Positions 3,551 to 3,714 of a stretch of 64,000 nucleotides of DNA are shown in pieces. The notes under the pieces are model-generated. The model was not told where the DNA came from. It was given only the letters and a program-made list of their open reading frames with translations, and ran no database searches. A program made the translations under genes and the position numbers. The stretch is from Streptomyces cadmiisoli (GTDB lineage Bacteria; Actinomycetota; Actinomycetes; Streptomycetales; Streptomycetaceae). Numbering within the stretch: position 1 is the first letter of the stretch; each line of letters starts with the position of its first letter. The stretch is taken from contig NZ_CP030073.1 of assembly GCF_003261055.1 (NCBI RefSeq), forward strand, positions 4,650,001 to 4,714,000, read 5' to 3'.

Positions 3551-3714
3551 GGGAGCTCGGAGCACCGGGCTGAGAGGACGCTGACCTCCGTATTCGCGAT
3601 GTTTCACGTGGAACATCACTCGGCACGAGTGATGTATCCCATGGAACTTCGGCCAACGGAAATCGCTGCGTCGACCGCCGAACCTGTTACCGGGTAATGC
3701 CGGCGTAGGGAGAC
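3551..3714 (+). promoter_or_regulatory. TPP (THI-box) riboswitch upstream of thiC
   Basis: The conserved THI-box elements are present in order. CTGAGAGGACG lies near 3570-3580, and GAACCTGTTACCGGGTAATG followed by CCGGCGTAGGGAGA lies at 3680-3714, ending just before the thiC start. TPP riboswitches bind thiamine pyrophosphate and shut off thiamine biosynthesis genes, usually at translation initiation in actinomycetes. The element is longer than usual, about 160 nt, because the variable P3-side region holds roughly 90 extra bases. Those bases include a parS site at 3601. Confidence 0.93.
3601..3614. promoter_or_regulatory. parS site (ParB binding), one mismatch, inside the riboswitch
   Basis: GTTTCACGTGGAAC differs from the parS consensus GTTTCACGTGAAAC at one position. 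It is flanked by T and A, extending the dyad. ParB binds such sites to organise the origin region for segregation during sporulation. It is embedded in the variable part of the thiC riboswitch. Confidence 0.8.

Follow-up and report, generated by a model that had tools for sequence, protein, structure and literature searches.

A parS-type site within the P3a arm of the thiC TPP riboswitch in Streptomyces cadmiisoli and related genomes

The thiC leader and its parS-type site

The window, that is, the whole 64,000-nucleotide stretch of the Streptomyces cadmiisoli chromosome that was analysed, contains the thiC gene and, directly ahead of it, a leader with a TPP riboswitch aptamer (Table 1). When 401 bases of this region were scanned with the Rfam model RF00059, the model aligned over its full length (positions 1-105 of 105), with 86 nt of the variable arm outside the alignment, and the ordered core of the family (GCTGAGA; CCTG...TAATGCC..GCG.AGG) was found ahead of this thiamine gene. 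The score obtained lies below the gathering score of the family (54.3 bits, the curation threshold), and a window-wide Rfam scan at that cut-off missed the thiC aptamer. Homologous leaders tend to score lower the longer their arm, if not strictly so, from 57.5 bits with a 27-nt arm to 34.1 bits with the 104-nt arm present here, and only 1 of 10 homologous leaders, the one with the 27-nt arm, scored above the cut-off. The leader thus resembles the TPP riboswitch (THI element) in its conserved core, in P2 and P4/P5, and in its place ahead of thiC, but differs in its sub-cut-off score, in a P1 that is poorly paired in the Rfam alignment, and in a P3a that bears a parS-type DNA site. P3a is described in passages of PMC2258182 as an optional stem-loop of the TPP riboswitch with predicted stacking on P2. 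A sigma-70 consensus scan ahead of thiC found no promoter. Three further TPP riboswitch candidates of the same genome, one of them above the Rfam cut-off, were found at C1:6362244-6362356 (-), 2911910-2912015 (-) and 6136419-6136489 (+). In Streptomyces calidiresistens (L015:3584-3757), an M-box (magnesium) riboswitch of 118 bits starts about 150 bases past the thiC match.

Table 1. Features of the thiC leader and gene (window positions)
Feature	Position	Strand	Basis
TPP riboswitch aptamer (RF00059)	3539-3728	+	Rfam, 34.1 bits, E 4.1e-5
Putative thiC promoter: TGTTCA (3501-3506), 18 nt, TAGCGT (3525-3530); start near 3537	3501-3530	+	conserved upstream consensus
P2, 5' strand, pairing with 3675-3678	3549-3552	+	fold constraint
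Conserved aptamer GCTGAGA	3569-3575	+	sequence
P3a 5' strand: base helix 3577-3581, inner helix 3588-3592	3577-3592	+	consensus fold, co-variation
parS-type site GTTTCACGTGGAAC	3601-3614	+	motif scans, conservation
Distal unit GTATCCCATGGAAC, partner of the parS strand in the long P3a helix	3634-3647	+	predicted fold, co-variation
P3a 3' strand: inner helix 3655-3659, base helix 3668-3672	3655-3672	+	consensus fold, co-variation
P2, 3' strand	3675-3678	+	fold constraint
P4/P5 half of aptamer (CCTG ... TAGG)	3683-3709	+	Rfam, fold constraint
AGGGAG, probable ribosome-binding site in the aptamer 3' end, 8 nt before ATG	3707-3712	+	read from sequence
thiC, phosphomethylpyrimidine synthase	3721-5532	+	NCBIfam equivalog NF006763.1, 974.4 bits (cut-off 650)

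The initial annotation had placed a ParB-type site with one mismatch in the expanded variable arm of the riboswitch, and the window motif scan confirmed it: the 14-mer GTTTCACGTGGAAC differs from GTTTCACGTGAAAC at a single position. This site lies between GCTGAGA and CCTG, which belong to the two conserved halves of the aptamer, so that a transcript of the riboswitch would include it. With up to 3 mismatches allowed, the window contains 6 parS matches versus 0.90 expected, a number reached in 0 of 100 shuffles. Five more parS-type sites lie in the window at 12890, 15680, 15746, 22774 and 36932, and the spacing between 15680 and 15746 is 66 bases. In the genome (10.24 Mb) we counted 24 parS-type sites with at most one mismatch, 17 of them exact, all within 326 kb (C1 4,474,799-4,800,903) round dnaA and parB (5 to the left and 19 to the right of dnaA); the control, the parS pattern read backwards, had no match in the whole genome. 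The profile matches of parB and dnaA fall inside this cluster, 48 kb and 54 kb from the leader, respectively, and the other TPP riboswitch candidates of the genome all fall outside it. The leader site belongs to the GGAAC type (either orientation), which makes up 6 of the 24 sites; the CGGG type accounts for 1, and this genome has no CATG form. Thus, the leader copy shares with the chromosomal parS sites of Streptomyces (ParABS system) the identical 14-mer and its variants, a place in a cluster around oriC in a genome that encodes ParB, and conservation at the same place in relatives. It differs from them in sitting, as a putative ParB site, within a structured regulatory RNA with co-varying pairing. 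In S. venezuelae, 16-17 parS sites of this kind are bound by ParB, according to passages of PMC12511625 and PMC4852455.

Distribution of the leader site and its variants across Streptomyces

A pattern composed of GCTGAGAG, 15-45 nt and GTTTCACGTGRAAC was matched in 131 of 392 Streptomyces genomes. After removal of the 6 genomes with only a match lacking the aptamer string (G007, G078, G142, G185, G288 and G315), GTTTCACGTGRAAC was located in the thiC aptamer arm in 125/392 (aptamer matches counted by eye), so that the comparison of arms proposed with the initial annotation found the feature to recur. In a draw of 200 genomes from the family, in which the CATG form was also allowed, a leader parS was present in 31/63 Streptomyces genomes versus 0/137 genomes of other genera (by eye); one further Streptomyces genome (G505) matches elsewhere, and 4 other-genus genomes match without the aptamer string. 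These two draws partly overlap, and both are less biased than the sample of 212 leaders analysed below, which comprises 22 Streptomycetaceae loci out of 80 (L019 is from Kitasatospora; the other 58 were left out), the 30 best matches (this genome included), and 160 leaders taken roughly by rank from listed matches (111 from one listing and 49 from the listing that gave the 30 best). Strain duplicates, named and unnamed, are possible among the 212, and the arms of L001 and L082 are identical.

The aptamer core was matched in all 212 sampled leaders, with arms of 25-105 nt that do or do not contain parS, which supports the proposal that the arm is a tolerant place for such a site. At least one parS unit (up to one mismatch) was found in the arm of 104 leaders and none in 108; the unit stands at arm offset 22-28 in 102 leaders and elsewhere in the arm in L097 and L167. 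All 102 units have 0 or 1 mismatch and none has 2 or 3, though up to 3 were allowed in the search. In the P3a arm of L097 the first unit is degraded and the distal unit reads GTTCCACGTGAAAC, as if parS had moved onto the opposite strand of the same RNA helix. On the thiC tree of 212 rows the parS label needs 4 changes (L097 and L167 scored as without), and on that of 78 rows 3 changes (L167 scored as with), 2 of them forced by starred branches. The parS-bearing leaders fall into a large clade, a second clade made up of eight exact short-arm leaders, and the pair L180/L167. The tree favours three origins, and the AU test did not reject a single parS clade (p 0.286; p 0.471 without L180/L167), suggesting that the leader parS arose one to three times. 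Since the test permits one clade, repeated independent acquisition was dropped as a firm claim.

Among the matches listed, the CATG form GTTTCACHTGAAAC occurs in at least 150 places in the genus, 136 of them with A. Of the 150 matches listed, 57 lie in the thiC leader and 43 roughly 43-57 kb upstream of thiC in the same orientation, the remainder being elsewhere within 400 kb (12), on other contigs or far away (22), or in genomes outside the set with a listed thiC position (16). The 4 of those 43 that were checked, and an exact site of this genome, all occupy one codon position in a frame that opens with VSERRRGLGRGLGALIP. One CATG-bearing frame of 130 residues gave a partial parB_part match (4e-13) under the model cut-off, and the full parB of this genome scored above it. 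Within the parB frame, parS thus occupies the same codon in 5/5 stretches, as an exact site in this genome (L280, C1:4605940) and as CATG in L292-L295; there, CATG changes a codon (VSRET to VSHET). A G8-to-A change (window 3608-3609 and relatives) is also seen repeatedly both in the leader and in parB, each time with the same orientation. The parS within parB and the one in the thiC leader are alike in being part of a transcribed sequence with a second job, which is coding in parB and RNA structure in the leader. As judged from these recurrences, CATG is probably a tolerated parS; mere decay was not favoured as its origin, given that the parB-borne parS of other Streptomyces also has CATG.

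Constraints on the 14-mer and on the arm

On the thiC tree of the 102 leaders, 10 of the 14 parS positions showed zero changes, and the variable positions 4, 8, 9 and 11 changed 1, 11, 2 and 10 times, respectively. On the same tree, the linker positions -9 to -6 changed 10, 16, 15 and 20 times, and the fast codon phase of thiC (read as third positions, the phases being unlabelled in the output) changed 9.66 times on average, 17% of the columns of this phase being free of change. In none of the three arm classes does the consensus fold pair A6 or C7, yet both are invariant in the 102 leaders. Because ten positions, the unpaired A6 and C7 included, are fixed while their neighbours vary freely, the 14-mer appears to be constrained at the DNA level. 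Moreover, no leader (0/102) combines a change at the centre with one at position 4 or 11 (44, 43 and 15 leaders have one or neither, kinship ignored), as if ParB tolerated one deviation only.

The arm is also constrained as RNA. Short arms (71 nt) have a base helix, an inner helix, and a tip hairpin whose stem consists of parS and its flanking pairs. In the 23 distinct short arms, 97.6% of cells are paired (38-51% in slid controls), 6 pairs changed on both sides versus 3.1 in shuffles, and double-sided cells number 18 versus 4.8, with flank variants GAT/ATC, GGC/GCC, GGT/ACC and GAC/GTC. All three flanking pairs are present in 29/31 short arms versus 7/23 of the other parS sites of the genome (Fisher 1.2e-6, a value that is too strong as the arms are related). 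In long arms (104 nt, 43 distinct), the parS strand pairs with a distal unit (97.3% of cells paired), which itself resembles parS, since a palindrome has a palindromic complement. Double-sided cells (21 versus 10.4) and the covariation score (0.137 versus 0.115) exceeded those of the shuffles (0/500 each). In 44 long-arm leaders, the combinations at position 11 and opposite it are A-T (26), G-T (9), G-C (7) and others (2), those at position 9 are T-A (22), G-C (6), T-C (13) and G-A (3), and the sole C at position 4 faces a G. Thus, the flanks in short arms and the opposite strand in long arms co-vary so as to keep the pairing, which argues for an RNA-level constraint. Conservation and co-variation together strengthen the proposal that the same bases carry information at the level of both DNA and RNA.

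With the aptamer helices held, fold prediction gave the local hairpin as dominant in 30/31 short arms and distal pairing in 71/71 long arms; in the 104-nt arm of this genome, the 5' half of parS is predicted to pair distally with a mean probability of 0.98. The RNA hairpin that the initial annotation expected from the parS dyad is therefore predicted in short-arm relatives and not here. A self-hairpin of parS in this genome was not favoured either on co-variation, since the local hairpins of long arms, at 95.3% of cells paired, have no double-sided change and the long helix does. Holding the aptamer fold costs on average 2.98 kcal/mol with parS versus 2.34 without, and the cost is under 1 kcal/mol in 8/102 parS arms versus 27/110 arms without; in these models parS arms seem, if anything, slightly less accommodating to the aptamer.

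We consider it fairly likely (probability about 0.7) that an origin-region parS is kept, in an RNA-compatible form, in the tolerant P3a arm of the thiC TPP riboswitch. The origin-region clustering, the units with 0-1 mismatch, the zero-change positions, the exclusion between the centre and positions 4/11, and the pairing data count in favour of this reading, as does the recurrence of leader variants at origin-region sites (GGAAC and CGGG here, CATG in the parB of others). Several results count against it. Changes in the leader parS number 23 in the 3' half versus 1 in the 5' half, a skew that a symmetric ParB site does not predict and that G.U pairing explains at position 11 and not at position 8. 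In long arms, the self-pairs of parS are 97.1% paired, parS position 9 is unpaired in 16/44, and 2 of the five co-variation measures do not exceed shuffles (both-side-changed pairs, 4 versus 3.2, 169/500; pair types, 21 versus 20.4, 203/500). The CATG form, for which ParB binding is putative, makes up 35/102 leader units, and the 108/212 leaders without parS indicate that neither use is essential.

The preserved pairing, the commonness of CATG among leaders, and the excess of changes at position 11 over position 4, which runs in the direction suiting G.U pairing, would also fit an element that serves the riboswitch arm as RNA only, is unused by ParB, and resembles parS by descent or chance. 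We regard this as unlikely, because the unpaired A6 and C7 are invariant, the unit has either 0-1 mismatch or is absent with nothing between, the 14-mer and its variants are identical to the clustered parS sites of the genome, and changes at the centre and at 4/11 are mutually exclusive.

Arrival in the arm, relation to thiC and significance

By simple arithmetic, 24 sites in 326 kb amount to about 1.4% per given 190-bp stretch, or more if intergenic DNA is favoured. One of the near-oriC sites could hence have fallen in the leader by coincidence and merely been inherited by relatives, with which the single origin that passes the AU test agrees. Coincidence and inheritance may explain how the site arrived in the arm; as an account of the whole feature they are improbable, since inheritance alone explains neither ten zero-change positions beside linkers that change 10-20 times nor the co-varying partners.

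The initial annotation had also suggested that ParB couples thiamine synthesis to origin organisation. ParB loaded at the leader would then regulate thiC as a roadblock, through spreading or by altering co-transcriptional folding, tying thiamine synthesis to segregation. Passages of PMC5521831 report promoter repression by ParB next to two parS sites in Pseudomonas aeruginosa, and in S. venezuelae the spread of ParB reaches as far as 2.5-3 kb from a parS site (passages of PMC12511625), which puts thiC in range. Nevertheless, about half of the sampled leaders have the aptamer and no arm parS, and 10/10 parS-free named Streptomyces/Kitasatospora loci have no substitute parS (up to one mismatch) either within thiC or ahead of the aptamer; in one of these loci a parS-type site lies downstream, 1964 nt from where the aptamer starts. 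Besides, a transcribed parS is ordinary here, since that of parB lies inside the gene. With no ParB-thiC link found, the suggested coupling was not supported, and we hold such regulation to be improbable. A further improbable reading, confined to the parS-bearing half of Streptomyces, is that RNA polymerase is slowed or blocked within the aptamer by a ParB clamp on the template; co-transcriptional folding would then shift, and thiC output would follow the assembly of the segrosome. For SCO3928, which we take to be the thiC of S. coelicolor, the sole Streptomyces mention found in excerpts of the literature is as an EMSA negative control. No publication on a parS in the thiC leader or a TPP riboswitch was found among titles and some abstract openings, and older parS maps (Jakimowicz 2002) may list the site; passages of PMC12511625 mention neither thiC nor the riboswitch.

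If, as we favour, the arm hosts an origin-region parS, the site would act as duplex DNA as a loading point for ParB, and selection for ParB binding would maintain the 14-mer. As RNA, the same bases would be part of arm structure away from the TPP core, as the hairpin at the tip of short arms or as a strand of the long helix in long arms; this part is based on predicted folds, with the pairing backed by co-variation. Selection for an orderly arm would maintain the pairing of the flanks in the former and of the opposite strand in the latter. The riboswitch itself is probably ordinary, with TPP hiding the ribosome site in GUAGGGAG, and ParB at the leader site is probably neutral for thiC. Most likely, a tolerant arm took up parS and both uses coexist.

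Selection has thus apparently acted on one stretch at both levels, on the DNA as a centromere-type site and on the RNA as a folded arm of the riboswitch. The constraints are separable by position, with a fixed core and with flanks and partner strand that co-vary. The case suggests that foreign functional DNA can be lodged in P3a, the optional arm, while the aptamer core is retained. The thiC leaders of Streptomyces offer a comparative test bed for the sharing of DNA between ParB loading and transcription.
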